Positions 70-25,914 of a stretch of 47,472 nt of DNA are shown piece by piece. Both the position numbers and the translations under genes were made by a program. The stretch lies in assembly GCA_001872315.1 (NCBI GenBank), contig MNVZ01000025.1:1-47472 (forward strand), written 5' to 3'. A model generated the notes under the pieces. That model saw only the letters and a program-made list of their open reading frames with translations, was not told the DNA's origin and did not search any database. The DNA comes from Candidatus Pacearchaeota archaeon CG1_02_39_14 (GTDB taxonomy: Archaea; Nanobdellota; Nanobdellia; Pacearchaeales; GW2011-AR1). Position 1 is the first letter of the stretch; each line of letters starts with the position of its first letter.

Positions 70-3000
70 TTATAAGATAAATCCTCTTTCAAATTCAAAT
101 CCTATTCTTGATAACTCTACAACATTGACCTTTCCATCACAATTAATATCATTATAATTGCTAAATCCAGAGTCTGTTGAGACATTATTATATCTGGCTC
201 TAATCGTATTAATATCGAAAAGGCCAACTTCCCCGCTATTATCAACGTCCGCATCTCTCGGACAATTCAGATATTTGTTCTGTATAGTTGTTCCATCTGA
301 GCCTGTCTGGCTTGCTCCGCTTCCTCCGCCAAGATTGACACTCCATGTACTTGTTAAACCAACAAGACCATCATAATTAATCTGTAATGTTCCTCCATTT
401 CCTCCAAACAAAAGGCCGTCTCCTCCCGTTCCCACAAACTTTGCATTTGTCCTGTTAAACAATCCAGTAGGAGGCATAGTTATATTCACAATACTTCCGT
501 TTGAGCCGATATTTGCCCCATCTTCTCCGCTAAACCTAACTCCTTTTTGAGAAGAGAACAATATCTGCCCTGAAAGGTTGATGTCAAGATCAAGGGCATT
601 ACCATTCTCATCAACGTTTGTATAGATGTCTCCATTGAACGTCAGGTCGTCAAACTGGCATATTCCACCAACACATAAATTGCTATTCAATCTGCAGTCC
701 CTGTCAATGACACAATCTCCGCCTTCCTTGCAGGTGTCCAGGCTTAAGCACAAAGGCAATGCACCGACAGAATAGTTAGTGAATCCAGTGACATTGAAGA
801 TTACTGGGTCTGCTTCTTCAGAAGTAAAGTTATAGCAGTCAGAGCAAATAAATCCATTCCTAAAGATGTAAAGTCCGAAGCTTTCCGGAAGGGCAAATTT
901 GACCAGGCTGACGTTTGCGCTTCTATTCAATCCGAGATTCAAATCGCTTCTGACATTTATAAGATTGTCTGTGAAAGAAATATCTCCTGTAAAGTTCCCT
1001 CCGCTTCCATTGACAGGATTAAGGAATCTGACCTCTCCATATTCAGAATCAACAACCCTCAATGTACTTCCAGCCGCATTCAGTGTATACTTCCCTATAA
1101 TGCTATCAATCAGATTCGTCCCGTTCGAGCTGACAAAATCAATATCGTAATAGGAAGGATCTGTGCCTGTGATAGTTGTACTATTAAAGGTATTGTTATC
1201 CCCTGAAGCCAGATAGACTGCCGTCTGGACAGAGTCTGTTATTCTGACATTATAGAAAGAGTTGTGCGAGCCGGAAAGATAAATAGCATTCACATCCGCA
1301 CTGCTCAAGTTAGTGTTCTTTATGGTGTTTCCATCCCCTGTAACTGCAACTCCGTAATTTCCTCCCTCAAAAGAGTTCACATTGAAAGTATTATTTCCCG
1401 AGGTAGCTATGAAGTGCACTCCTCTGTCAGAAGTGGCAAACGTATTCCCGTCAAAATAAGAGTGGTAAGTCGAGCTCAAAACAAGACCCGTGTTTCCATT
1501 GCTAAAGGTCACTCCTGTGACATTTGAATGATTTGCCCCTGCAAAGTATATCTCTCCGTTTGAAGAAAGTCCTGTAGCCCTTGTGAGATTAACATTTCTT
1601 ACACTCGTATATTTCTGATTGGAGTAAATCACATCATAGGAGAAAGTGCTCTCCCCTATTGTAAATCCGTTCCCTTCGATAGTCACGTTCTGTGCAGTCA
1701 CATCCAGGCAAGGCCCATCAAGAAGGTCAGATGGAATAATGTCTGCTGTAACATTATAGACCGTGTTTGCCTCGCTCAAAGCACCACATGCACTCACCTG
1801 CGTAACGTTAGGAGTCTCTCCGATTTCGTAAGTGCTGAATCCTGTAACATTGAATATAACAGTTGCTGCGTTAAGGCTTGTGAAGTTATAGCAATCACCA
1901 CACGCAGCTCCGTCCTTCAATATCGCAGGGTCTACAAAAGTTCCGGACATATTATAGAAGGTTATATTCGCAGGCCTGTTCAGTCCTGTCAGGACGCTTT
2001 CATCTACAGAAGTATAATTATTTCTTAGCTCGCTGTTGGCCCCTATCCCTGTCAGCGCAGATGAATCCAGAGTGTTGAGCCATCTTACTTCAGCCCCGGA
2101 AGAGCTTCCATTAATAAGAATAAGAGTCATATTCACACCATAATCTGCACTCGTATCAGTAAATGAGGAAGTGTAATTGATTGTCAATGATCCTGCACTG
2201 GCAGGAGTGCCGCCTGTGCTGACTCCCTGTGTAACATTGAGACTTGCGGAATTAAGATTGATAACACTATTCTCCAGGTAGATTAATCCTCCGTTTCCTC
2301 CTGCATTTGCCCCGCTCCCCCCTCTTGCAGAAGCCAGAGTGATATTCGAATTATATAGATAAATACTACCTCCTGATCCGCCAGCTCCAATTGAAGCATT
2401 TAAGTTTCCATCATTTGAGACACCAGTCAGTCCAGAATTCCTTATTGTGAAAGTTGTTCCATTTTCTCCTGTCCCTGCACCAGGATAGCTGTAAAATACG
2501 GAAAAATCGTAAGAGCTGACATTTAAATCAACAAGAGTGAAGTTAGTTGCCGGATAGAAAACATTGATTGCCTTGTCATTTGCCCCAAATCCTACTAACT
2601 GGCCCATTGTAAATCCTTTTCCATCAAAGACCACGTTGCTCGCATTGACATCAAAACAGCTAGAAGTTGGAGAAAAGAAGCTACCATTCAAATAATAGGT
2701 TTTGCTCTCCAGCAAAGAGGTACATCCACTTAACAATGAGGTATTTATTGAAAATGCAACACTTTCTGTGTCATTCCTGTTTCCGAAAGAGTCATTAACG
2801 TAAACTCTGAAAGTATAATCCCCTGAAGAAATTGAAGAGTTGCTTGCAGTATAAGTTCTGCTGTCAGAAGTGGACATAGTAACATTATTTATCCCTCCGT
2901 CGAGGCTGTAGCTTACACTGCCTCCATTTTCATTAAGAGTAACATTGAAGACCAAAGGAAGATGATTATAATGATAAGTTATGCCTGCAGGGAAAGTGAT

Positions 3001-6000
3001 ATTCACATTTGGAGGAGATATATCAGGGCCTCCCGCGCCTCCTCCCTGAACAGAAACAGTAATCAATCTTGTGTCAGTATTATTCTTGTTTCCTGCAATG
3101 TCAACAGCATAAGCTGTAAAGTTGTAATTTCCATTAGACAGATTCGAGAAGTTATGCTCATACTGTGTGCTTGTAGCGTTGAAAAGAGAGCTCAACTCCG
3201 CATTTGACAGAGACCTGTTGAATATCATGACCTCATCAATGCTTCCGTTCCATGCTCTAAGAGCACTAGCCGCATGAAGGGAGCCTATCGAATTTCCAAC
3301 TGAATTCTTAAAACTGCCCCCTGAATATGTGTCTCCCGTATTATAGGTTCCATCAAGACCGCATCCAATTACTCCTGAATTGTAAGTTCCGGTTATATGG
3401 TGCCATTCATTATCAGAAATATCAGTGGCTATCTCACATAATCCGGTTGTGGTTCCATCACCGACCAAAAGCCTCGGCCTTCCTGTAGTCTGATTAACCT
3501 GCAAAACCCATCCAACTCCTCCAACACTCACATCAGAAACAACATGTTTTATGCTGCCTGTATTATTGAAATTCACCCATGCAGAGACTGAAAAGGTGCT
3601 GTTAATATCGAATACAGAAATAGAAGAGCTTCCTCCAAGAGAGATATAATCTCCGCTTCCGTCAAAAACAAATCTGCTTCCATATTTCCCTCCTGTCGCC
3701 TGTGCTGCATTTCCCTGTGTTGCTCCATCATTCCCATAACTGCTCAAATCATCAGGATTTGTAGTTTCCGGAACAAGATCATCCATTCTTATCCATAATA
3801 CCAGGTCAGAGTCAAAATCTGTGAATGCATAATGGGATGTAAGCGCATCCGAACTCGACACGTTAACAATAAAACTATTCACACTTACCGTTTCCCCACT
3901 ATTTGGAGTTGGAGAGATAAATGAAATGTCAGGAGGCAAATCAGTAGGGTCTATTATATGGTCAAACTCAACACTTCCTGAAACAATCTTCAAATCAAAA
4001 GCATCCTGGCTGCCAACCAAATTGGACAGATACACTTTATTATACTGATTTTCAGCGAGAGAGTCAAACCTTGCTATTATCTCACTCCCATTCGCTTCGT
4101 AAATTTCAATTGAAGGCGTTCCATTGACAATTCTTGGGTAAATGGTTATATCATTTTCTGAAGTCAGGTTCCTCTCAAAAGTCACACGGACATATTCTTC
4201 TCCATTAATTGCTTCGCTCCAGATTCCATCAAGAGCATTTACCTCATTAAAAATATCAGACACAAACTGCCTGTCCGAATCCAGATGCTCTGCTTTCACA
4301 ATTTCTATTATGAAAGTCTGATTGCTCAACTGGGGAACAATCCACTCAACATAGTCATATATTCCATTTCCATCCTTGTCAGAAACAATTTCAGGCAGAA
4401 TATATACTGCCTGTTCCTGCCAGAATATTTTGACTGTTCCAGGGCTTGTAGCATCAAATTTTTCAGGTATATCGCTGTAAGCAAGGACCTCCTGATAATG
4501 GATACTTTCCGGCCCGACTATCTTAACCTCTTTTTCATCCTCTCTCTCTTCCTCAACTGCATAAGGGGCATCAGTAAAGTATTCTATTGTGACCTCTTCA
4601 ACAACCTCGCCGGGAGAGCCTGCCGAAATTTCGGAAACGACTCTTCCTGTAGGACCGAAAAGGCCCCTCAAAAAGACAACAAAATTTTCAAGAACATTGC
4701 TTTCCTTGCTCAATTTGAGGTCAACTGTAACCTCGCCGGTAATTGAAATACCATTTGGGATTTCATCTTCACTCAAATCCTCCCCTGATTTGTCTTCATC
4801 TATCCTTATCTCTTCTCCATCGTCGCTTACATTTATTACAACAGAAGGCCCCTGTTCAGGAGAGGCTTTCTTTCTCTTTATAACCTCTGCAACTTTAACA
4901 TCCTCAACATCATCAGAAAATTCTACAACAACTTTATCTGCAGGATTCTCACTGAAACTGACTCTCTTGCTCCACTTTACAGGCTGACCAAGAACCGCTC
5001 TGTGCTGCACTGTCTGCACATCATAGGTTGCGTTCCCTGTCTCATTGACAACACTTTCATTAGCTCCCGGAATGCTCTCGTTGTTCCTTACTATACTCTC
5101 CTTAACAATTATATTCTTTCTCGCCTGTGCCAATATAATCCCTGAATGCACTAAAGCAACATCAATTGAGTTGACACTCTCCTCTGCAAACAGGTTCAGG
5201 TCATGTAAATCTATCAAAATAGTCTTGCTTATTTCTTTATCAAAATAATCCTCTCCAAATCCCTCTTCTTCCTCATGATAATCAGTAGAAACAACAACCC
5301 CTTCATCTTTTGAGCTAAAAGAAACAATATCGTCTGAAGCATCTTTTCCATTAACCTTAACACTTCCGGAAACAAGTCTCGCCTTTTCGTTGCTTGCCAG
5401 AGAATATGTAAAATCTGATCCTTTAACGACAACCCCTGAAACAACAGTGCCTTCGCCTGTAACAACCAATCCAGTTATTCCAGCCCCTTCTCCAGTTCCG
5501 GCTCCCAATCCTGGCTCTTCAGGAGCTTCTACTCCTGGACTTATAGGCTCTTCAGGAACTTCCTCAACAGGAGGTTCAGGCTCAACAGGAGTTTCAACAG
5601 CATCTCCTCCGGAACCCCCTCCGGAACCCCCAGAGCTTCTCACGGGCTCGGAAGGCGGCTCTTGAGAATCCCCAACTTCAGGCTCAACAGGAGTTTCAAC
5701 AGCATCTTCAGATTCTGCGTCTTCGGATTCATCAGAATAAACTAAAATCTCAAACTCAACCTCTGGATAAACTTCTTTCTTTCCAATCACTCCATATCCC
5801 TTGCCGCTTCCCTCCAAATCGGCGCCTTCAGCATAGAACTTTCCCTCAATCAATTCGCCGGACGCAACACTGGAGAACAATACCTCTTTCGTCATCCCAT
5901 CAGCTTCAATGATAATAAGCGAATCTTCAGGAACCAGCTCCCCTCCGGAAAAATAGAATTCAAGCCTTCCCCCTATTTTTTCCCCAGGCTCATATATACC

Positions 6001-6237
6001 TCCAAGAACATCAAATGAGATTCTTCCTGTAGGTCTTAATCTGTCTGAAATTGCAAAAGCAGAAACAAAAAGAAGCACGAAAAAAAGAAGCACCCAGAAT
6101 GTAAATTTTCTGGAATCTTTCCTGTCAGAATCCCTTCCAACATACCTGGTTACAACCTTCCCGTCTTCCCTTTTATTCTCATAATAATACGGCCCAAAAA
6201 CTTTATCCCCTTTTTTTATGAATTTCTTATGAACCAA
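70..6237 (-). CDS. Giant membrane-anchored surface protein: N-terminal TM, acidic/Pro/Gly linker, LamG-like domain, beta-helix regions, Cys-rich segment, C-terminal dockerin-like repeats
   Basis: 2055-aa ORF; TM FTFWVLLFFVLLFVSAFAI; LamG-like LVLWIRMDD...GDYISLG...FSVSAWVNF...WHHITGTY...IDEVMIFNRSLS; N/G-rich NosD-like repeats; C-terminus DADVDNSGEVGLFDINTIRARY...NDINCDGKVNVVELSRIGFEF; many N-x-S/T sequons. Confidence 0.88.
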   Translation of the reverse strand: MVHKKFIKKGDKVFGPYYYENKREDGKVVTRYVGRDSDRKDSRKFTFWVLLFFVLLFVSAFAISDRLRPTGRISFDVLGGIYEPGEKIGGRLEFYFSGGELVPEDSLIIIEADGMTKEVLFSSVASGELIEGKFYAEGADLEGSGKGYGVIGKKEVYPEVEFEILVYSDESEDAESEDAVETPVEPEVGDSQEPPSEPVRSSGGSGGGSGGDAVETPVEPEPPVEEVPEEPISPGVEAPEEPGLGAGTGEGAGITGLVVTGEGTVVSGVVVKGSDFTYSLASNEKARLVSGSVKVNGKDASDDIVSFSSKDEGVVVSTDYHEEEEGFGEDYFDKEISKTILIDLHDLNLFAEESVNSIDVALVHSGIILAQARKNIIVKESIVRNNESIPGANESVVNETGNATYDVQTVQHRAVLGQPVKWSKRVSFSENPADKVVVEFSDDVEDVKVAEVIKRKKASPEQGPSVVINVSDDGEEIRIDEDKSGEDLSEDEIPNGISITGEVTVDLKLSKESNVLENFVVFLRGLFGPTGRVVSEISAGSPGEVVEEVTIEYFTDAPYAVEEEREDEKEVKIVGPESIHYQEVLAYSDIPEKFDATSPGTVKIFWQEQAVYILPEIVSDKDGNGIYDYVEWIVPQLSNQTFIIEIVKAEHLDSDRQFVSDIFNEVNALDGIWSEAINGEEYVRVTFERNLTSENDITIYPRIVNGTPSIEIYEANGSEIIARFDSLAENQYNKVYLSNLVGSQDAFDLKIVSGSVEFDHIIDPTDLPPDISFISPTPNSGETVSVNSFIVNVSSSDALTSHYAFTDFDSDLVLWIRMDDLVPETTNPDDLSSYGNDGATQGNAAQATGGKYGSRFVFDGSGDYISLGGSSSISVFDINSTFSVSAWVNFNNTGSIKHVVSDVSVGGVGWVLQVNQTTGRPRLLVGDGTTTGLCEIATDISDNEWHHITGTYNSGVIGCGLDGTYNTGDTYSGGSFKNSVGNSIGSLHAASALRAWNGSIDEVMIFNRSLSNAELSSLFNATSTQYEHNFSNLSNGNYNFTAYAVDIAGNKNNTDTRLITVSVQGGGAGGPDISPPNVNITFPAGITYHYNHLPLVFNVTLNENGGSVSYSLDGGINNVTMSTSDSRTYTASNSSISSGDYTFRVYVNDSFGNRNDTESVAFSINTSLLSGCTSLLESKTYYLNGSFFSPTSSCFDVNASNVVFDGKGFTMGQLVGFGANDKAINVFYPATNFTLVDLNVSSYDFSVFYSYPGAGTGENGTTFTIRNSGLTGVSNDGNLNASIGAGGSGGSIYLYNSNITLASARGGSGANAGGNGGLIYLENSVINLNSASLNVTQGVSTGGTPASAGSLTINYTSSFTDTSADYGVNMTLILINGSSSGAEVRWLNTLDSSALTGIGANSELRNNYTSVDESVLTGLNRPANITFYNMSGTFVDPAILKDGAACGDCYNFTSLNAATVIFNVTGFSTYEIGETPNVTQVSACGALSEANTVYNVTADIIPSDLLDGPCLDVTAQNVTIEGNGFTIGESTFSYDVIYSNQKYTSVRNVNLTRATGLSSNGEIYFAGANHSNVTGVTFSNGNTGLVLSSTYHSYFDGNTFATSDRGVHFIATSGNNTFNVNSFEGGNYGVAVTGDGNTIKNTNLSSADVNAIYLSGSHNSFYNVRITDSVQTAVYLASGDNNTFNSTTITGTDPSYYDIDFVSSNGTNLIDSIIGKYTLNAAGSTLRVVDSEYGEVRFLNPVNGSGGNFTGDISFTDNLINVRSDLNLGLNRSANVSLVKFALPESFGLYIFRNGFICSDCYNFTSEEADPVIFNVTGFTNYSVGALPLCLSLDTCKEGGDCVIDRDCRLNSNLCVGGICQFDDLTFNGDIYTNVDENGNALDLDINLSGQILFSSQKGVRFSGEDGANIGSNGSIVNITMPPTGLFNRTNAKFVGTGGDGLLFGGNGGTLQINYDGLVGLTSTWSVNLGGGSGASQTGSDGTTIQNKYLNCPRDADVDNSGEVGLFDINTIRARYNNVSTDSGFSNYNDINCDGKVNVVELSRIGFEFERGFIL
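5575..5605. repeat. 31-bp direct repeat, copy 1 (copy 2 at 5677..5707)
   Basis: ttcaggctcaacaggagtttcaacagcatct read at both places; encodes part of DAVETPVEPE linker. Confidence 0.85.
5677..5707. repeat. 31-bp direct repeat, copy 2
   Basis: Identical to 5575..5605. Confidence 0.85.
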
Positions 6238-15554: not shown

Positions 15555-15947
15555 TTAGCTGTTAAGAAAAACTTCCCCGTTCTCTTTCCTGATAGAATTG
15601 CTTCCTTTCAAGGGCTGCCCCGAAACATCAGCAACAGGGTAGGCGGTAGCATGCTCCCCATCAAGTGTCCTGACGTAAACTGCTCCGGCAATTATACTTA
15701 TTTCATAATCGCTGTTCAGAATCTTTTCAGGAAGCTCAAAATTCCTTGAATATCCCTCCGAAGACCTGTGAGCAAGGTCTATTTCTGCCTGAACGTTCAA
15801 AGCAGTGTCTTTTACCAAAACGTCTCTTTTCTCATTTGTTTTATCAGCAGTATTTATCTGGATTGCAAATGCAAAAGCCATAAAGAAAAAAAGAACCGCC
15901 CCTACGAGAATTATGAACTCCACTGAAGATTGTCCCTTATTCCTCAT
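15555..15947 (-). CDS. Pilin-like protein with class III signal peptide
   Basis: N-terminus MRNKG|QSSVEFIILVGAVLFFFMAFAFAI. Confidence 0.85.
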   Translation of the reverse strand: MRNKGQSSVEFIILVGAVLFFFMAFAFAIQINTADKTNEKRDVLVKDTALNVQAEIDLAHRSSEGYSRNFELPEKILNSDYEISIIAGAVYVRTLDGEHATAYPVADVSGQPLKGSNSIRKENGEVFLNS

Positions 15948-16347
15948 TTACAGAAACTCCATTATCAAGAGCAATTATCTGAATTCTTTTTACTCCCTCA
16001 TTCTCGCTAAGGTCTCCGGATATGGGCACATTGCTCTTGTATGCACTCTTAGCCACTCCGTTAGCAGTTGAGATGCTCACAACAATCTGGTCCTCAATTA
16101 TTTCAACACTCTGCACACCTGCCGGAAGATACGCAGTGATTGTAACTCTTGATGGCTCTCCAGAATAAAAGACGCTCTCTGCCCCTGATACAATCTTTTC
16201 TGCATAGTTCTCAAGCTGGTAAAATTTGATGCTGTCTCTCAATTGAGCAGAATAATAAACTGCAACACCAAGCACCCCGATTACAAGAAAAGTTACAAAC
16301 CCCACAACAACAAGATACTCGACACTAATTTGCCCTTTTTTAATCAT
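15937..16347 (-). CDS. Pilin-like protein with class III signal peptide
   Basis: N-terminus MIKKG|QISVEYLVVVGFVTFLVIGVLGVAV; overlaps the next pilin gene. Confidence 0.87.
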   Translation of the reverse strand: MIKKGQISVEYLVVVGFVTFLVIGVLGVAVYYSAQLRDSIKFYQLENYAEKIVSGAESVFYSGEPSRVTITAYLPAGVQSVEIIEDQIVVSISTANGVAKSAYKSNVPISGDLSENEGVKRIQIIALDNGVSVNEE

Positions 16348-16365
16348 TTTCAGTTTTTCCTAAGA

Positions 16366-16385
16366 AGGTTTATAAAACAAAACCT
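16366..16385. promoter_or_regulatory. TATA element of the minus-strand pilin pair inside an inverted repeat AGGTTT-8-AAACCT (possible operator)
   Basis: aggtttataaaacaaaacct read directly; lies in the 81-bp divergent gap between 16347 and 16429. Confidence 0.45.
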
Positions 16386-16428
16386 CCATATTAAAATAAA
16401 CAGCTTCATATTTAAAATCTCTCAAAAA

Positions 16429-16962
16429 ATGGAAAAAAGAGGAGCAGGAAAAATACTGACAGTTCTGATTTCTGCAGTTCTGATAATCATAGCATTGCAT
16501 CTGATGGCCCACTTCACAGTTTATGGAACGAGAATCCCGACACTCGGGGAAAAGGGAGTCTCTGGGCTTGCAATCGGCCCACTGGGGATAGACGAAAGCG
16601 AATTTCAGGACATAAAAGGAAACACCCAAAAAGAAACCTTTTCAAAATACCTTATAGTTGGGGAATGGCTCTTCCTGATAGTCCTTGTCCTTTTCACTTT
16701 TGTCAAGGATAGAGTCAGCATGACAAGAGAGGTGATAGACCTGAATATAAAAGAGAGATACAAGAATCCAGGGAACAAGACAGACCTGGACATATTGTAC
16801 GAAATTCTCAAGGAAAAGAAGACCTTAAGGGTTTCAACAATCTCAAAGATGTTCAACATAGACAAGCGCCTTGTAATGGACTGGATAAACACTCTGGAAT
16901 CAGGAGATCTTGCCTCAATAAATTACCCAAGATTCGGAGAGCCTGAAGTAAGAATAAATTAA
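16429..16962 (+). CDS. Membrane-anchored winged-helix protein
   Basis: ATG at 16429 (track start 16243 overlaps the divergent pilin); TMs TVLISAVLIIIALHL and YLIVGEWLFLIVLVLFTFV; C-terminal LYEILKEKKTLRVSTISKMFNIDKRLVMDWINTLESGDLASI. Confidence 0.75.
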   Translation: MEKRGAGKILTVLISAVLIIIALHLMAHFTVYGTRIPTLGEKGVSGLAIGPLGIDESEFQDIKGNTQKETFSKYLIVGEWLFLIVLVLFTFVKDRVSMTREVIDLNIKERYKNPGNKTDLDILYEILKEKKTLRVSTISKMFNIDKRLVMDWINTLESGDLASINYPRFGEPEVRIN

Positions 16963-16972
16963 GAGATAACAA

Positions 16973-18892
16973 ATGCCAAAAAAGAAAATCAAACACGTAA
17001 AAAAGAGTGGAAAGAAAGCCCATAAGAATCCTGCAAAAATTGAAATCAGGAAAAGTTCAGCACATATGCCGGACTACGAGCTCAAAAGACAGGACATAAT
17101 GGAGAGGCTTCAAAGGCTGGATCCTTCATTTGTACCTAAAGAACCTCCAATGCCTTTTAAAAAAGAAAACAAAGACGAGCAGGAAGAGACCGAAGGGCAG
17201 AAAGAGACTGAAGAGAAAAAAGGAACTGAAGAGCAAGAAGAAAAAGAAATTCAAAAAGATAAGAAAAAAATTGAAATAGGACTTCCAAAACTTCCAAAAA
17301 AAACAGTTTTAGAAAAAGCCCCTGATAAATACGAGAATTCTGATGAGAGCCCTGCATTAAGAGCAGAAGAAGTGATTCCGATTAAAACCCAGGACCTTGA
17401 AGAGAAGAACGCAAAGCTGATAGAAAAATATGGCATAGAAGTTGACAAGGCTGCGGTAAGCGTGGAAATAAAGCAAACAGAAAGGGGCGTCAAATATTAT
17501 CTGCATGTGCCGAAGATAGACATAGCAACAACCTCGCTTCTGAACGAAATAAGAAATGAGCTTATCTCAATAACAACTATCAGCATGAAGGAACTGACAG
17601 ACCCTAACTCCCTTAATACAATAAAGAAAAGATTTATGAATGACGCGCAAAAAATACTTCGGGAGAATCTCCCAAACCTCCAGCAGAAATCGGAAGACTT
17701 TCTTATAGGAAAGCTTATTCAGGATATGCTTGGACTGGGAAGTATAGAATTTCTCATAAATGACCCCAATCTTGAAGAGATAGTTATAACATCCTCAACA
17801 GAGCCAATAAGGGTTTTCAGTAAGAAATACGGATGGGTTTCAACAAACCTGATAATAGAAAAAGAAGAGGAGATAGTCAATTACGCAAACATCATAGCAA
17901 GAAGGGTAGGAAGGCAGATAAACGTCCTTAATCCTCTACTCGACGCACATTTAGTCACAGGAGACAGAATAAATGCGGTCCTCTATCCTATTAACACAAA
18001 AGGAAATACCATAACAGTCAGGAAATTTGCCCGTGACCCTTTCACTATAATCGACCTGATAAAAAGCAAAACATGTGACCTTGACATCGCTGCACTTCTC
18101 TGGCTTGCAATAGAATATGAAATGAACATCCTTATTTCCGGTGGAACTGCCTCAGGAAAGACTGTTTTTCTAAACGCCTGCATGCCGTTTATCCCTCCAA
18201 ATCAAAGGATTATCAGCATAGAAGATACGAGAGAGCTTATGCTTCCTCAATTTCTTTACTGGACGCCGCTTGTTACAAGAACACCAAATGCTGAAGGAAA
18301 GGGAGAAGTCAGCATGCTTCACCTACTTATAAATTCATTAAGAATGCGTCCGGACAGAATAGTTTTGGGAGAGATGAGAAAGTATGAAGAAGCAATGGTT
18401 TTATTCGAGGCAATGCACACCGGGCACTCTGTATATGCAACAGTCCACGCAGATTCTGCAGCAGAAACAGTTTCGAGACTTACAAACCCTCCATTAAATG
18501 TTCCCCCAAATCTTCTTCGTTCAGTAAACCTTAATGTCATAATGTTCAGGGACAGGAGAAAAGGAATCAGAAGAGTTCTTCAGGTTGCTGAATTTGAGGC
18601 CGGAAAAGATGACGCAAAAGCAAACATCCTTTACAGGTGGTCTCCGGAAGAAGACAGAATAATAAAACATAGCGAAAGCTCAAGGTTTTTCGAAGAAGTG
18701 AGCAGGCATACCGGAATGTCCGAACAGGAAATGAACAAGGCACTTGAGGAGAAGAAAAATATTCTCTCCTGGCTGGTAAAAAATGAGATGAGAAGCCTTA
18801 AGGAAGTTGGCAAGGTAATGGACATCTATTACAAGAATAAGGAAACCCTAATGAAGATTATAAGTAAAAATGACAAGAAGAGCATCATTTAA
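16973..18892 (+). CDS. Type II/IV secretion (pilus assembly) ATPase, VirB11/PilT/FlaI family, with a charged N-terminal extension
   Basis: Walker A ILISGGTASGKTVFLN; ISIEDTRELMLPQ; RMRPDRIVLGEMRKYEEAMVLFEAMHTGHSVYATVHADSA. Confidence 0.96.
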   Translation: MPKKKIKHVKKSGKKAHKNPAKIEIRKSSAHMPDYELKRQDIMERLQRLDPSFVPKEPPMPFKKENKDEQEETEGQKETEEKKGTEEQEEKEIQKDKKKIEIGLPKLPKKTVLEKAPDKYENSDESPALRAEEVIPIKTQDLEEKNAKLIEKYGIEVDKAAVSVEIKQTERGVKYYLHVPKIDIATTSLLNEIRNELISITTISMKELTDPNSLNTIKKRFMNDAQKILRENLPNLQQKSEDFLIGKLIQDMLGLGSIEFLINDPNLEEIVITSSTEPIRVFSKKYGWVSTNLIIEKEEEIVNYANIIARRVGRQINVLNPLLDAHLVTGDRINAVLYPINTKGNTITVRKFARDPFTIIDLIKSKTCDLDIAALLWLAIEYEMNILISGGTASGKTVFLNACMPFIPPNQRIISIEDTRELMLPQFLYWTPLVTRTPNAEGKGEVSMLHLLINSLRMRPDRIVLGEMRKYEEAMVLFEAMHTGHSVYATVHADSAAETVSRLTNPPLNVPPNLLRSVNLNVIMFRDRRKGIRRVLQVAEFEAGKDDAKANILYRWSPEEDRIIKHSESSRFFEEVSRHTGMSEQEMNKALEEKKNILSWLVKNEMRSLKEVGKVMDIYYKNKETLMKIISKNDKKSII

Positions 18893-18894
18893 AG

Positions 18895-19788
18895 ATGGAC
18901 ACAAAAATAAAGTTCAAGGTTCCGTTTACAATAGCTGAACTGGAGAAGCAAAAGCAGAACTCCCATTTTCTTAACAAGTACTTCAGGCACAAGCCAAAAT
19001 CAAAACTGCAATTCTATCTCGAGAACAGCGACACCGGAATATCAAGAGAAGAATATCTTTCAATATGCCTCAAGAATTTCCTGATATCATTTGTCCTATT
19101 TTATATAATATCCACGACTTTCTTTTTCTTCCTAAAGATAAGCTACTCCTTCCTTGTCTCAATTCCCGTTGCATTCGCCTTTGCTGGATTCATATATTTC
19201 AGCCAGGCAATATACCCGAAAGTCTACGCTTCCAGAAAACAGAGAAATATAGAGAAAAATCTAATTCCCTCGTTAGAAGACATGCTTATACAGCTTAATT
19301 CCGGAATCCCCCTTTTCAGCATTCTTGTAAACATTTCAACGTCTGACTATGGATTCCTTAGCGTTGAATTCAAAAAAGCTGTTAGAAAAATTAATGCCGG
19401 ATATCCCCAGATGGAAGTTCTTGAGGAGCTCGGGGAAAAAAATCCCTCTCCTTTTTTCAGAAGGGCATTATGGCAGATAAGCAACGGTATGAGGGCGGGA
19501 AGCGACATATCGATAATTATCAGTGAAAGTATCAAGGCGCTTAACGAAGAGCAGTTGATTCAGATTCAGAACTACGGAAACAAACTAAATCCACTGATAA
19601 TGTTTTACATGCTTATATCAGTAATCATACCCGCACTTGCAATAACTTTTATGACTATAATAACCTCCATGGTAAGCCTTCCCTCATTTACATCAACTCT
19701 CCTTTTCATCACCTTGTTCGTATTTGTCATGATAATCCAGGTGACGTTTCTCGGGATAATAAGATCTGTGAGGCCTAGTTTACTATGA
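18895..19788 (+). CDS. Type II secretion F/TadC-like membrane protein (first copy)
   Basis: Multiple TMs; NLIPSLEDMLIQLNSGIPLFSILVNIS and WQISNGMRAGSDISIII GspF-type features. Confidence 0.85.
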   Translation: MDTKIKFKVPFTIAELEKQKQNSHFLNKYFRHKPKSKLQFYLENSDTGISREEYLSICLKNFLISFVLFYIISTTFFFFLKISYSFLVSIPVAFAFAGFIYFSQAIYPKVYASRKQRNIEKNLIPSLEDMLIQLNSGIPLFSILVNISTSDYGFLSVEFKKAVRKINAGYPQMEVLEELGEKNPSPFFRRALWQISNGMRAGSDISIIISESIKALNEEQLIQIQNYGNKLNPLIMFYMLISVIIPALAITFMTIITSMVSLPSFTSTLLFITLFVFVMIIQVTFLGIIRSVRPSLL

Positions 19789-20729
19789 AAGAAGAAAAGG
19801 AAAACAAGCTGAAAAGAGAAAAGAGAAACCAGGACATAAGAAAAAACATAATGGTTTCCGGAAAAACAAACATAATTGTCACTTCCTGCCTGTCCGTTTT
19901 TACCACAGTCATCGCACTAATATTCTCAAGAAGCCTGCTTATTACAGCCGTGACTCTGTTCTCTTCTATAGTCCTTGTTCAGATATACTTTGCAATCAAG
20001 CAGATTCTGAAAGAAGCAGAAAGGCTCAAAAAAATGGAATCTTCATTCCCTGACTTTATACAGCTCGTATCTTCCAACTTAAGGGCAGGCATGACAATTG
20101 ATAAAGCCCTGCTTTTGAGTTCAAGAAAAGAATTCGCCCCTCTCGATGAAGAAATACTTCACCTTGGAAAAGACCTTGTCACAGGAAAAGAAATATCCAC
20201 TGCCCTTGAAGAAATGGCAAAGAGGGTTGGCTCAGAAAAAATAATCAAGACAATCAATCTCATAGTGTCAGGAATAAGGTCTGGAGGAAATCTTGCAACC
20301 TTGCTGGAACAGACCGCCTCAAGCATGAGAGAAAGAAACTTCGTGGAAAAAAGGGCGGCATCAAATGTCCTTATGTATGTGATATTCATATTTTTCGCAG
20401 TCGCAATTGGTGCGCCTATCCTGTTCGGGCTCTCATCTGTGTTAGTTGAAATACTCACCGACCTCCTTTCAACTCTTCCAGAACTTGACGCATCCGTTTC
20501 GGTACCATTCACGCTGACAAGCATAAGCATCTCTGTAACTTTCATAACTTACTTTTCCCTTGCATTCATAATAGCCACAGATATAATGGCCTCATTCGTT
20601 CTCGGTCTCGTAAGTAAAGGAGAGGAAAAAGAGGGCTTGAAGTACCTCCTGCCCCTTGCTCTTGTAAGCATAGTTATATTCCTGATTGTGAGAGTATTCC
20701 TAAGAAGTTATTTTGGAGGGCTATTCTGA
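19785..20729 (+). CDS. Type II secretion F/TadC-like membrane protein (second copy)
   Basis: SFPDFIQLVSSNLRAGMTIDKALLLSSRKEF and IVSGIRSGGNLATLLEQTASSMRERNFVEKRA; ATGA overlap with first copy. Confidence 0.88.
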   Translation: MKEEKENKLKREKRNQDIRKNIMVSGKTNIIVTSCLSVFTTVIALIFSRSLLITAVTLFSSIVLVQIYFAIKQILKEAERLKKMESSFPDFIQLVSSNLRAGMTIDKALLLSSRKEFAPLDEEILHLGKDLVTGKEISTALEEMAKRVGSEKIIKTINLIVSGIRSGGNLATLLEQTASSMRERNFVEKRAASNVLMYVIFIFFAVAIGAPILFGLSSVLVEILTDLLSTLPELDASVSVPFTLTSISISVTFITYFSLAFIIATDIMASFVLGLVSKGEEKEGLKYLLPLALVSIVIFLIVRVFLRSYFGGLF

Positions 20730-20775
20730 TTCCCTAAGCAGTTAGGTTTTTATATCTCTAAATTTTATACTGAAT

Positions 20776-21552
20776 ATGAAAAAAAAGAAGGCTTCAAAAT
20801 CTCCTGTAAAAAAACCGGCATTAAGAAAGAAAAAACCTGAAAGTAAGAAAAGCTCTAAAGTCCAGACAGGAGTATCTGTGCTCGATTCTCTTATACAGGG
20901 AGGATTCGAGAGAAATTCAACAAATATGATAGTAGGAAGTTCAGGAAGCGGCAAGTCAATTCTTGCAACCCAGTTTTTAATGGGCGGAATCAAAAAGGGA
21001 GAAAGCTGCCTTTACGTGACTTTTGAGGAAAAAAAGGAAGAGTTTTTCAGCAATATGAAAAAATTTGGCTGGGACTTGGAAGAATATGAAAAGAAAGGTC
21101 TCCTTACATTTCTTGAATACACTCCAATAAAAGTCAAGACAATGCTTGAGGAAGGAGGAGGAGCTATAGAGTCTATAATCCTTAGAAAGAAGATAAGCCG
21201 AATGGTAATAGATAGCATAACCTCTTTTGCCCTTCTCTTCGATGACGAGCTTGAAAAAAGAGAAGCTGCCCTGTCCCTGTTCAACATGATAAGCGATTGG
21301 AACTGCACCTCCCTACTTACCCTGGAAACAGAGCCCCCAAAGAGTAATCAGTCGACAACTCATACGCTTGAATTTGAGGCAGACTCAATAATTCTTCTGC
21401 ATTACATAAGGAGCAAGGGGCAAAGAGAGAGATACCTCGAAGTCTTAAAAATGAGGGGAACAGATCACTCTACAAGTCTGCATAAGATTGATATAGGAAA
21501 ATCAGGGATAACAATCCAAAAGTCAGGTGCAAAAACACCCTCTTCCCTTTAA
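20776..21552 (+). CDS. RecA-superfamily KaiC/FlaH-like ATPase
   Basis: GVSVLDSLIQGGFERNSTNMIVGSSGSGKSILATQFLMGGIKKGESCLYVTFEE; MVIDSITSFALLF. Confidence 0.85.
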   Translation: MKKKKASKSPVKKPALRKKKPESKKSSKVQTGVSVLDSLIQGGFERNSTNMIVGSSGSGKSILATQFLMGGIKKGESCLYVTFEEKKEEFFSNMKKFGWDLEEYEKKGLLTFLEYTPIKVKTMLEEGGGAIESIILRKKISRMVIDSITSFALLFDDELEKREAALSLFNMISDWNCTSLLTLETEPPKSNQSTTHTLEFEADSIILLHYIRSKGQRERYLEVLKMRGTDHSTSLHKIDIGKSGITIQKSGAKTPSSL

Positions 21553-21588
21553 CAACAACATTAAATACACATTTTTACTTGTTATAAA

Positions 21589-22071
21589 ATGAGGAAAAAG
21601 AGGGGGCAGGCGTGGGGATTTGATTTGATGATTGCCACAATTATCTTCATTTCCGGAATAGTTGCATTCTACTTATATTCATTGAATTATCAGACTGAAG
21701 CCCAGGAAACCCTCGATGCTCTTTTCTACGAGGGAAATGCAATAGCCCAAGACATATTATCAGAAGGATTTCCCACAAACTGGAATATCAACACAGTTCA
21801 AAAAATAGGGCTGACAAATGACGGAAAGATAAATGCGACAAAGCTTGAGTATTTTTACAATCTCTCCGTTCAGGATTATCAAAGGACAAAAATCCTTCTT
21901 GACGCTAAAAATAATTATTATATGAACTTCTCTAATGGAATGGTGATAGGCCAGCAGGCAATTGAAGGAATCGGTCTCCCTCCATCAAGCCCTGCCAATA
22001 TTATTAAGATAACAAGATTCACAATATACGGGGAAAAACCCACGTCAATTAACATATTCATATGGAATTAA
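21589..22071 (+). CDS. Pilin-like protein
   Basis: N-terminus MRKKRG|QAWGFDLMIATIIFISGIVAFYLYSLNY. Confidence 0.75.
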   Translation: MRKKRGQAWGFDLMIATIIFISGIVAFYLYSLNYQTEAQETLDALFYEGNAIAQDILSEGFPTNWNINTVQKIGLTNDGKINATKLEYFYNLSVQDYQRTKILLDAKNNYYMNFSNGMVIGQQAIEGIGLPPSSPANIIKITRFTIYGEKPTSINIFIWN

Positions 22072-24479
22072 AAAAAGAAGGTGCCTTTTTCAGCATAGAC
22101 GCGCTAATAGCAGTAGCAATAATTTTTCTGATAATAACAATTGCCTATCCTGTTGTGAGGCAAACAACCCAGCAGACAGAGCTGCATTACGACATACTTA
22201 GCTCCCTCTCAAATCTTAAAGTAGGGGATTATGATAATGCTTACGTGCAGTCACTTATAATCGACGGAACAATTCAGAATCCAAATAACACTCTTTTGGA
22301 GCAGATAGGAGAATTTTATATAACAGACCCTGAAATAGCAAAAACAATCGGCGAATCAATCCTTTCAGATATAAGCACAAACGAAAATCTTGGGCTATGG
22401 TACGGCACAACCCTTATTGCCTCAAAAAACAAATCTTCTTACGACCCCGATAACTCAATCCTGATAGACACTGCAAGACAGACAATAACAGGAATTCAGA
22501 ACGGAACAAATGTAACAGGTTTCTCTGCAAGAGCATTCTTGTCCTCAAGCTTAAGAGAAGAATACTTTTACTTTGGCGGTTATATTGGTGACGGCAACAT
22601 CTCAACAAAGATAGAATTCAATGGGAATATAACCTCTGCTTCAATGGAAATGGCAATAAACAATCCGTTTGACCTATACATAAATAATGTCTCCTCCGGT
22701 TCCTACTCCGCTTCCCCCTCAGACTTCACCCCTTCAAATTACACCCTTCCTACAGGAAACTTCCAGACAGGAGAGAACATAATAAGAATAGAAGGGGACA
22801 ATATCCATATAGCTGGAGGATTCATAAAAATAACTTATGAGGCTGAAATAGAATACCAGCAGCCGCAAAGATATAATTTCCCTGGAATAACCGGGCTGAT
22901 AAATTTATACGATGGAGTTTACATCCCTCAAACTCCTGATTCTCTTTACATAAGTCTTCACCTGGACACTAACAACACAGAAATTATCCTGAACCTCGGA
23001 AACAAAACAATCTATAACGGCTCAACATCACAGGAGGAAACAATAACCTTCTCAAACTCCCAGCTTTCTTCATTGATTGACTACTCAAGCCTTGCAGATA
23101 AAACGACTCCTTTAAGACTCGGATTAAAAAATGTAACTTTTGTCAATAACGGGACTGGAGAAGCAGATGTAGTTTCTGTAACTGACTTATCAGGAAGCAT
23201 GAACAATGATAAGTTAACGAACGCCAAAATTGCAAATGATGTCCTGATTGATGCCCTGCTGAATGTCACAGGAAATAGAATAGGGCTTATAGGATACAAC
23301 TCCAGGACAATAGAAGGATATTCACATCATCTTTCAACAAATGTACAATCACTAAAATCAGTAGTTAGCAGCTGGAGGTCTGGAGGTTTTACATGCATCT
23401 GTTGTGGAATAAACAGCGCAAGAGACGAATTTGTCCTTAATTCGAACGAATCCAAGACAAAAGCAATGATTGTAATGAGTGACGGGAGGGCAAACAAAAA
23501 ATGCGATGAGCAGGGACAGGCAGACCCTAAACAGGATGCAATACTTGCAGCATGTCAGGCTTATCAGAATTATAATATAACTGTGCATGCCGTAGGCTTT
23601 GGAACAAGTGCGGACGAAGAAACACTGCAGGCAATAGCCGCCTGCGGAAATGGCTCATATTTCTATGCAGACATAGAGGAACTGGCACTGATATACCAGC
23701 AGCTGGCAGAAAACATAATAGAGACAACTTTTGAGGAACAGACAGTTGGGACTTCAGGAGACATAACAACAAAGCTTTATCCCGACTCATACATAGAATT
23801 CAATTATAGCTCTCCAACACCTCCTTACGGCCTTCTTATAACAAAAGAAGAGCTTTTTGATAACACTCTTTCATGCTCATTTGATATTATCTCGAATGCA
23901 ACAATCATAAGTTCAAATGTAGTTTCATATTCTGGTTCAAGATGGACAGATAATGTTGTGGTAAACGGACAGGAGATATACAATCTTGAAGATTTTGGAA
24001 AGCCGTATATAGAGCTCGGAGACCCTTATTCCATAAATATCCCGACTTACCTTCTAAATCAGTCTAACTACCTTGAACTGACAACAGGAGCATCAAAAGG
24101 GAATTCTTCCGCAGGTTCAGCTTCAAATAAAGTCATTTATACCCTTCTTACAAACGTGTCAGGATTTTCCGCAATTGCTGCAAATGCAAACGGATGCACC
24201 TGGACAATCCAGTTCGAGGATTACACCAACATCACTGCACCAATACCCTCAAATTATTCTGGCTCCGAAAACTGCTACTATCAGTCAACAAGAACAGAGT
24301 ACAATGAAAATGATGCAATCCAGACAGCTGTATTCAATCTTCTAAGAAAACTGGATTTGGATTCAAACAATCTTATAGACACAAAGTTCACAGAGCAGAA
24401 TCTTGAAATAAGCACTTCGGAGATAACAGGCATACCCTACACATGGTCGACTGAAGTTCAGGTGAGAACATGGAGATAA
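22062..24479 (+). CDS. Pilin-like membrane protein with von Willebrand factor A domain
   Basis: N-terminus MELKKEG|AFFSIDALIAVAIIFLIITIAYPV; MIDAS VTDLSGSMNNDKL; MIVMSDGRAN; AVGFGTSADEETLQAIAACGNGSYFYA. Confidence 0.88.
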   Translation: MELKKEGAFFSIDALIAVAIIFLIITIAYPVVRQTTQQTELHYDILSSLSNLKVGDYDNAYVQSLIIDGTIQNPNNTLLEQIGEFYITDPEIAKTIGESILSDISTNENLGLWYGTTLIASKNKSSYDPDNSILIDTARQTITGIQNGTNVTGFSARAFLSSSLREEYFYFGGYIGDGNISTKIEFNGNITSASMEMAINNPFDLYINNVSSGSYSASPSDFTPSNYTLPTGNFQTGENIIRIEGDNIHIAGGFIKITYEAEIEYQQPQRYNFPGITGLINLYDGVYIPQTPDSLYISLHLDTNNTEIILNLGNKTIYNGSTSQEETITFSNSQLSSLIDYSSLADKTTPLRLGLKNVTFVNNGTGEADVVSVTDLSGSMNNDKLTNAKIANDVLIDALLNVTGNRIGLIGYNSRTIEGYSHHLSTNVQSLKSVVSSWRSGGFTCICCGINSARDEFVLNSNESKTKAMIVMSDGRANKKCDEQGQADPKQDAILAACQAYQNYNITVHAVGFGTSADEETLQAIAACGNGSYFYADIEELALIYQQLAENIIETTFEEQTVGTSGDITTKLYPDSYIEFNYSSPTPPYGLLITKEELFDNTLSCSFDIISNATIISSNVVSYSGSRWTDNVVVNGQEIYNLEDFGKPYIELGDPYSINIPTYLLNQSNYLELTTGASKGNSSAGSASNKVIYTLLTNVSGFSAIAANANGCTWTIQFEDYTNITAPIPSNYSGSENCYYQSTRTEYNENDAIQTAVFNLLRKLDLDSNNLIDTKFTEQNLEISTSEITGIPYTWSTEVQVRTWR

Positions 24480-25390
24480 TGAACAAGAGAGGAATATTTT
24501 TCACAATACTTGTAATCCTTATATTTTCACTTTTTCTCGCATCTTTTACATTTTATTCAGGAATAAAAGAAAGAAAAACGACACAAAAAAGAGTTGAGTC
24601 CATGAACAGCTTCCTTCTTTCAGTAGAAGAGGATCTCCCAAGAAAATTATTTGTTTCCGGATTTAGGTCCATTTTTATACTTGAAACAAAGATAATAGAT
24701 TCAGGAAATTACATCTCAAATCCTGAAAGCAGGATGGAGGAAATGATATTCAATGGAACTCTTGACGGGGAATCTCAGGAGCTCATGCTCGGGGCCACAT
24801 ATCCGGAAATAATCTCATCAGTGCAGGAAAGGGCGGACAAGATAAATGTAAACCTCACTCTTGGAAATCCTGTTTTTTCCGTTGAGCAGGAAGACCCTTG
24901 GAATGTCAAATTCACCCTTGAGGTAGATTTGTCTATGCAGGACAAATCAGGGCTGGCTTCCTGGAGCAAGACAGAAACAATAACTGCTTACGTCCCTGTC
25001 CAGAATTTTGAAGACCCAATCTATGTTGTGAACACAAACGGACTTGTTATAAATAAGATAATAAGAAGCCCTTACTCTGTCTTTGTATCTGGAAATGATT
25101 ACACCAATCTTTCCCTGCATTCGGAAAACTCATATTATATAGCTGACTCAGATGCTCCTTCATTCATTGACAGGCTGCAGGGAGTGATAAGCGAAAGCCC
25201 GAACGGAATAGAATCTCTAGTAAATCTACAGGAATTATCTCAAAAAGGAATAAACGTTCAGGACAAGACTGTAGTTGACCATATCTACTTCTCAAGCAGT
25301 AATCCTTCATCCTGTTTTGTCCAGGGAATGCCTTCCTGGTTCAAGCTTGATACCAGCCATCTTGAAGTTTATAATGCAACATGCTCCTGA
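24479..25390 (+). CDS. Pilin-like/minor pseudopilin protein
   Basis: N-terminus MNKRG|IFFTILVILIFSLFLASFTFYSG; TAATG coupling with the vWA gene (track start 24470). Confidence 0.65.
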   Translation: MNKRGIFFTILVILIFSLFLASFTFYSGIKERKTTQKRVESMNSFLLSVEEDLPRKLFVSGFRSIFILETKIIDSGNYISNPESRMEEMIFNGTLDGESQELMLGATYPEIISSVQERADKINVNLTLGNPVFSVEQEDPWNVKFTLEVDLSMQDKSGLASWSKTETITAYVPVQNFEDPIYVVNTNGLVINKIIRSPYSVFVSGNDYTNLSLHSENSYYIADSDAPSFIDRLQGVISESPNGIESLVNLQELSQKGINVQDKTVVDHIYFSSSNPSSCFVQGMPSWFKLDTSHLEVYNATCS

Positions 25391-25405
25391 CGATAAATAA
25401 GAATA

Positions 25406-25413
25406 TTTATAAA
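25406..25413 (+). promoter_or_regulatory. TATA element of putative major pilin gene
   Basis: TTTATAAA; SD-like GGAGGTT at 25450-25456 upstream of ATG 25462. Confidence 0.65.
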
Positions 25414-25461
25414 CCTCCAGCCCTTAAAATTGATATACACTAGGTAAAAGGAGGTTAGAAA

Positions 25462-25914
25462 ATGCGTAACAAAAGAGGACAGGCAGCTATGGAGTTTTTG
25501 ATGACTTACGGCTGGGCTATTCTGGCTGCAATCATCGCAATCGGCGTCTTGGCGTACTTCGGTGTCTTCAGTCCAGGGCAATATGTCGGAAGTTCTGCTG
25601 TAGTTACCGCGCCTTGGTATGCGAATGCGTGGAATATAGACACAACAAACGTAAACCTCGAGCTTCAGAACAATGGTGGAGAGACCTTAACAATCCATGA
25701 TGTCAGCGTAGACCCATCAGATGGAGCTACCGGATGTACAAACACAGGACTCGTTGGAGCTGTAAACTCAAGTGGGTCTCAGATAGTTAATGTTGCATGT
25801 GCTGGAATGACTTCTGGATCAACATTCAGAGGAGATATAACAATAACATACTCCAGGCCAAGCAGCGGACTTAACTTAACTTCTACAGGTTCCATAACTG
25901 ATACAGTCAGGTAA
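25462..25914 (+). CDS. Putative major pilin
   Basis: N-terminus MRNKRG|QAAMEFLMTYGWAILAAIIAIGVLAYFGVF; own promoter, SD and T-rich downstream region. Confidence 0.85.
   Translation: MRNKRGQAAMEFLMTYGWAILAAIIAIGVLAYFGVFSPGQYVGSSAVVTAPWYANAWNIDTTNVNLELQNNGGETLTIHDVSVDPSDGATGCTNTGLVGAVNSSGSQIVNVACAGMTSGSTFRGDITITYSRPSSGLNLTSTGSITDTVR

Follow-up and report, generated by a model that had tools for sequence, protein, structure and literature searches.

A candidate archaeal type IV attachment pilus with a modular vWA-headed pilin in a Pacearchaeota genome

The window analysed here, a 47,472-nucleotide stretch of DNA from Candidatus Pacearchaeota archaeon CG1_02_39_14 (contig MNVZ01000025.1), contains an eleven-gene pilus locus at positions 15555-25914. 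We consider this to be, probably, the locus of an archaeal type IV attachment pilus, the trimeric tip of which would carry an exchangeable adhesive head, comparable to Streptococcus PilB or Caulobacter CpaL. The carriers of this gene set are tiny and for the most part uncultured archaea. How DPANN archaea recognize and hold other cells is little understood, and a tip built on a vWA pilin may show how: because the binding domain of the likely tip protein holds plugged-in domains in relatives, it may reveal how targets are recognized. A 2016 census of archaeal pili could not identify the cognate pilins of one nanoarchaeal ATPase type (PMC4858521); for one ATPase type of nanoarchaea, the locus supplies a pilin set that is complete and syntenic, and the variation of its head is legible in genomes. 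To judge by the literature searched, this would be the first archaeal vWA-headed modular tip pilin to be described, and archaea are absent from a 2021 survey of modular pilins. The locus also bears on the origin of the bacterial Tad tip.

Machinery and pilins of the locus

The source genome is 688 kb in size and 86% complete, and the window is its contig C19. Ordinary archaeal genes (topoisomerase, MCM and aminoacyl-tRNA synthetases) lie on the flanks of the locus. Every gene named in a preliminary description was found in its place, with the ORF list of the window, Pfam and NCBIfam in agreement. The general features of archaeal type IV pili (T4P) are all present, namely a secretion ATPase, T2SSF platform proteins, class III pilins and a prepilin peptidase. 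The pilus assembly ATPase (16973..18892, plus strand; T2SSE, 1.4e-35) is followed on the same strand by the genes for platform protein 1 (18895..19788; PF00482, 1e-14) and platform protein 2 (19785..20729; PF00482, 1e-16), which overlap by 4 bases (ATGA). Each has a single T2SSF domain, so that PF00482 occurs once in each of two adjacent genes, a Tad-like trait in the style of TadB and TadC. The preliminary description had noted that no prepilin peptidase was visible; this is correct for the locus, but a Peptidase_A24 match (E 1.4e-15) is present elsewhere in the same genome (G000:C35:701-1012).

The best NCBIfam profile for the ATPase was that of archaellum FlaI, at 286 bits against a cut-off of 550. 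Equivalog scores for TadA (181.5 bits; cut-off 373.15), BasE (136 bits; cut-off 1000) and UpsF (33 bits; cut-off 400) were also below the cut-offs, and the nearest solved ATPase structures were Archaeoglobus 2OAP (253 bits), FlaI (187) and CpaF (166). In a quick tree with few references, rooted on CpaF and holding no Epd (clade 1) or clade 4 reference sequences, the window ATPase and its cassette-associated relatives formed a 24-row clade (SH-aLRT 99), and FlaI, 2OAP (Archaeoglobus GspE), Haloferax PilB and a second nanoarchaeal ATPase shared a branch that excluded this clade. A first tree of 132 rows was set aside as unreliable because of its long branches.

The genome also has a second pilus-type ATPase, which is in two pieces (G000:C23:10010-10900 and G000:C34:590-1222) cut at about residue 414-419. 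Both parts lie in a single ORF of ~1,000 aa in several relatives (for example, G001:C26:37743-40625), as would be expected for an intein-like insertion. A further ATPase of the genome resembles the PIN-domain type that is unlinked to pili. Three loci (L251-L253) represent a second nanoarchaeal pilus locus, with an ATPase of ~510-520 aa, platform genes of ~435 and 290 aa and several small ORFs ahead; L024, a member of the second nanoarchaeal ATPase type, grouped with Archaeoglobus GspE and Haloferax PilB.

Adjoining the ATPase gene is a gene for a membrane-anchored winged-helix (wHTH) protein (16432..16962, plus strand), the position of which is conserved. The preliminary description of this protein held in that homologues adjoin the ATPase in most loci, some of them with clear HTH or CBS domains. 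Its match to the winged-helix family HTH_29 is weak (0.017), and the gene probably starts at ATG 16432 rather than at TTG 16243. The family was present in 45 of the first 64 loci. Its other parts vary: the window protein has a membrane segment, the Aenigmatarchaeota homologues have CBS domains and, in many Woesearchaeales-type genomes, there is a coiled coil. From its constant place beside the ATPase, the protein would more likely serve in the cytoplasm as an adaptor or regulator than as a general transcription factor.

The KaiC-family ATPase (20776..21552, plus strand; PF06745, 3.5e-57) has a P-loop lysine (K60) and a catalytic-type EE pair (84-85) that are invariant in 17 homologues, and it scored 64.7 bits against the ArlH/FlaH cut-off of 215. 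The preliminary description had counted KaiC towards an unusual composition, which did not hold up: the gene was found in just 24 of the 69 loci with the cassette, and ATPases of this family had already been reported close to archaeal T4P genes (PMC4858521). KaiC is an optional accessory and not a defining component of the system.

Two small pilins are encoded on the minus strand. The first (15555..15947; class III signal KGQSSVEF) is DUF7266-like, with Pfam matches to DUF7266 (7.5e-5) and Class_IIIsignal (3.7e-4) that are both under the cut-off; DUF7266 was recognized in 10 of the 18 members of its family, and hhalign gave 93% for one pair comprising the window pilin and a Haloferax mediterranei pilus-locus protein. 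The second (15937..16347; KGQISVEY) belongs to a family in which Q6 and E10 are invariant and Class_IIIsignal was matched in 13 of 18 members. On the plus strand lie pilS, a small minor pilin (21589..22071; KRGQAWGFD) with invariant Q7 and D12, for which 6 of 22 family members match DUF7287; the large vWA pilin; the pseudopilin psp (24470..25390); and a candidate major pilin of 150 aa (25462..25914) with the N-terminal sequence KRGQAAMEFLMTYGWAILAA, the same N-terminus being found in pilins near the locus in many loci. Pfam recognized class III signals in the minus-strand pair, with scores under the curated cut-off, and in none of the other pilins; the signals of pilS, the vWA pilin and psp were judged by eye. 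By sequence reading, all three of these proteins are without the Glu5 typical of major pilins.

The AlphaFold model of psp is confident (pLDDT 91.8) and has a long N-terminal helix of 72 residues (residues 6-78). A structure search with this model returned no PDB analogue, and a GspK-like identity was rejected on this result; derivation from Haloferax DUF7261 was also rejected, with no significant match. Aenigmatarchaeota psp proteins (L055, L058 and L059) are 660-670 aa long with an N-terminal extension, and that of L055 has weak PepSY/YpeB-like matches. In nine loci (L103, L113, L115, L117, L119, L120, L121, L135 and L137) pilS is 365-508 aa long instead of ~160, and in L119 the extra part is internal to the protein; inserts may thus also be tolerated by pilS, a cassette pilin other than the vWA pilin.

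The vWA pilin and its variable head

The vWA pilin (22062..24479, plus strand) is an 805-aa modular protein and a candidate tip adhesin. It begins with a pilin-like N-terminus, KEGAFFSIDALIA, followed by ~340 mostly beta residues, a vWA domain at residues 369-538 (23166..23675; Pfam, 3.4e-15) and a second beta-rich region. The AlphaFold model (pLDDT 81) places a membrane helix at residues 12-28, followed by a low-confidence break, and the first 40 residues have pLDDT values of ~40-70. Among the Foldseek matches of the model were inter-alpha-inhibitor heavy chain, three pilus-tip adhesins (SpaC, RrgA and Mfa5) and S. sanguinis PilB (7b7p), a type IV pilin with a vWA module; SpaC, RrgA, Mfa5 and PilB have also been reported as the closest structural analogues of Caulobacter CpaL (PMC12607857). 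Derivation of the vWA pilin from Haloferax DUF7288 was rejected, with no significant match.

The MIDAS residues of the window protein are D375, S377, S379, T444 and D474. All were kept in 58 of 68 homologues, and one or more were lost in the other 10. In most homologues the MIDAS threonine lies within a TCxCC motif, in which cysteines flank the threonine.

Inserts of 165-751 aa occur in 24 of 80 homologues, always at the same position of the model, after window residue 460; the equivalent site is empty in the window protein (23439..23444). The insertion point is flanked by a helix (446-460), next after the MIDAS threonine, and by the following strand (466-473) and, given the usual geometry of the vWA fold, would be on the face opposite the metal site. 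Pfam independently found the vWA domain in two halves, one on each side of the insert, and profile searches in three phyla broke at approximately the same vWA position. Some inserts are LamG/concanavalin-like, and many others resemble one another in sequence and have no Pfam name. In another set of relatives, of 609-657 aa (L119-L128), the N-terminal ~160 residues and sometimes the C-terminal part are kept, and there is no vWA domain. These alternative heads, the plug-in inserts, the retention of the MIDAS and the structural matches to tip adhesins leave the adhesion-type tip suggested in the preliminary description as the best reading of the protein. One locus (L117:3501-14508) has three tandem large vWA pilins (1363, 1402 and 906 aa), of which two carry inserts and the third has none.

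A pilin cassette shared among archaeal phyla

Thirty public-genome loci were collected through the ATPase and many more through the vWA pilin or by genome, and all were annotated with profiles made from the window's own proteins. As loci were chosen by the ATPase or the vWA pilin, the synteny counts describe loci with at least one of the two. Among the 69 non-redundant loci that had both pilS and a large pilin, pilS was immediately upstream of the large pilin in 67, psp adjoined the large pilin in 66, and a further class-III pilin lay ahead of pilS in 58. Synteny in relatives had been set beforehand as the test of the preliminary description, and the order was kept in 66-67 of the 69 loci and in several phyla. 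The pilS-vWA pilin-psp arrangement is far from chance. Beyond the preliminary description, the sequences point to a unified cassette, an exchangeable vWA head with an insertion hot spot, and two pilins that resemble euryarchaeal families.

The machinery genes were similarly ordered. A high-scoring ATPase was found in 33 cassette loci, and in 32 of these the wHTH gene adjoined the ATPase gene and two platform genes followed. In 23 further loci the ATPase was under the score limit of 700 used for this count; the low-scoring ATPases tested, from Woesearchaeales-type genomes, fell in the clade of the window ATPase. Many Woesearchaeales-type genomes and a third archaeal phylum have the genes on one strand in the order pilin, pilS, vWA pilin, psp, wHTH, ATPase, platform 1 and platform 2. 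The pilin half is oppositely oriented in many Pacearchaeota; in the window, only the two class-III pilins are reversed. One genome, 95% complete, has a pilS-vWA-psp-pilin cassette (L239; G029:C15) and, as its sole pilus ATPase match, a divergent protein (E 1e-67), which hints that another ATPase may be able to serve the cassette.

The vWA-pilin profile was matched in 115 of 371 Nanoarchaeota genomes (E 1e-20), 41 of 96 Aenigmatarchaeota genomes (1e-10) and 22 of 29 genomes of the third phylum (1e-8), in which record L061 bears the label 'Euryarchaeota archaeon'. Of the weaker matches, a few span the vWA domain alone. Wider use in Diapherotrites was rejected, since the sample gave bare generic vWA domains only; one Diapherotrites locus (L056) has pilS-like genes and the ATPase. 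Distribution is patchy in the window's own family, in which 9 of 33 genomes have the ATPase. A link to genome reduction was likewise rejected: genome size did not differ significantly with presence of the system (p 0.26 and 0.87), and the system also occurs in a phylum with genomes of up to ~2.5 Mb. Given this spread, the association with a host-dependent lifestyle made in the preliminary description is tentative.

Relation to known pili and proposed function

S. sanguinis PilB, a structural match, resembles the window protein in combining a pilin-type N-terminus with a large vWA head that has a MIDAS, and its vWA module mediates adhesion (PMC8179133). In this bacterial protein the vWA domain directly follows a canonical pilin module, whereas the window protein has a beta-rich stem of ~340 residues before it and a second beta-rich region after it. 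The lectin domain of S. sanguinis PilC belongs to the same superfamily as the LamG inserts described here, but the lectin modules are within the vWA domain in archaeal homologues and on another pilin in S. sanguinis.

Tad pili offer a second comparison. Caulobacter CpaL is a pilin-vWA protein predicted to lie at the tip with two minor pilins and proposed to be a mechanosensor (PMC12607857), and in Myxococcus the pilus tips are made of bacterial minor pilins of the TadE/F/G type (PMC12075869). Tad tips (CpaL with CpaJ/CpaK in Caulobacter, KilL/M/N in Myxococcus) are alike in having a large head on a pilin, two smaller minor pilins and exchangeable tips, and Tad pili share with the window locus two single-domain platform genes. 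Unlike Tad, the window locus has KaiC instead of TadZ and no Flp pilin. Among the cassette pilins, searches for TadE/TadG domains gave no TadE match and a single Tad match at E 0.12, not above chance; homology to TadG/TadE was rejected after hhalign of the vWA and pilS families against Tad_C/TadG-type and TadE proteins of a Pseudosulfitobacter plasmid gave nothing. Denise et al. traced Tad back to a system of archaea that had two platform genes (PMC6668835), and the window layout fits such an origin, although the sequence tests of Tad minor pilins were negative. It is quite unlikely, if conceivable, that the bacterial Tad tip has its archaeal forerunner or sister in these loci, which together with the insertion hot spot would make up an ancient exchangeable recognition tip used by DPANN-type archaea for partner-cell choice; we raise this reading because of the split platform, the TadE/F/G-like layout of pilS/psp and the vWA pilin, and an ATPase outside the FlaI/GspE branch.

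Two archaeal systems share features with the locus. Two platform genes are common in euryarchaeal clade 2 T4P (PilB4-type loci; Makarova et al. 2016), and the families of two of the small window pilins show some resemblance to DUF7266 and DUF7287 of the Haloferax mediterranei pilus locus, with matches in part of their members and the window protein under the cut-off. However, the window ATPase falls outside the group of Archaeoglobus GspE and Haloferax PilB, unlike those of clade 2 (PilB3/PilB4), and no counterpart of the vWA pilin or psp was recognized in the Haloferax locus. Epd (EppA-dependent, clade 1) pili are alike in having two platform genes, class III signals and large candidate adhesins, but the window locus has no DUF2341 adhesin, MinD-type ATPase or EppA gene. 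By these sequence comparisons, membership of the window system in Tad, Epd or euryarchaeal PilB3/PilB4 could not be demonstrated.

We propose that the ATPase, probably linked to the adjacent winged-helix protein, would dock on the two single-domain platform proteins and polymerize class-III pilins into a filament, of which the 150-aa pilin would be the main fibre subunit. pilS, the vWA pilin and psp would probably come together as a complex of three parts, priming the fibre and capping its tip, and the vWA head, with its MIDAS site and conserved cysteines, would be exposed as the module that binds a ligand. KaiC would act as an optional modulator. As the vWA head carries plug-in lectin-like domains or is replaced, the tip would be the part that varies from target to target. 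Such a pilus may plausibly serve in attachment to a host cell. We counted against this model the poorly predicted N-terminus of the vWA pilin, for which a canonical pilin fold is thus no more than putative, the signals of pilS, the vWA pilin and psp judged by eye, a psp without an analogue, the loss of MIDAS residues in 10 of 68 homologues and the divergent ATPase of G029.

The vWA pilin might instead be a tip mechanosensor or retraction stop, with tension on the cysteine-bearing vWA domain read by KaiC or by the CBS/winged-helix partner. We regard this as unlikely, if with some merit: the proposal made for CpaL (PMC12607857), the TCxCC cysteines flanking the MIDAS threonine in most homologues and the CBS domain of the wHTH partner in Aenigmatarchaeota all speak for it, but variable lectin-like inserts and swapped heads suit target recognition better than a constant sensor, and KaiC was not found in most cassette loci. 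An improbable reading is that the pilS-vWA-psp trio is a membrane anchor or assembly platform that stays at the cell surface, as once proposed for TadG. TadG-type vWA proteins have been hypothesized to be pilus anchors (cited in PMC4858521); an anchor would hardly be expected to have lectin-like inserts and heads of up to ~2,100 aa, however, and the Myxococcus tips consist of minor pilins of the bacterial TadE/F/G type (PMC12075869). A pseudopilus for protein secretion or DNA uptake has in its favour the GspE-like ATPase and the presence of several minor subunits that resemble pseudopilins, yet the gene maps, in which flanking genes were not annotated singly, revealed no recognized DNA-import channel or exported effector conserved beside the cassette, and a pilin with the conserved major-pilin N-terminus lies in or near many loci, which makes this very improbable. 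A derived archaellum is hardly credible despite FlaI being the best NCBIfam profile of the ATPase and despite a FlaH-like ATPase, given scores below the cut-offs for FlaI (286 against 550 bits) and ArlH (65 against 215), no FlaF/FlaG match at the locus and an ATPase outside the branch of FlaI, Archaeoglobus GspE and Haloferax PilB (SH-aLRT 99), in agreement with the earlier assignment of the machinery and pilins to a T4P locus.

Elsewhere in the window, 9 kb from the pilus locus, a surface-type protein of 2055 aa (70-6237, minus strand), which has Ig-like matches as well as a LamG domain, is possibly a further adhesin.
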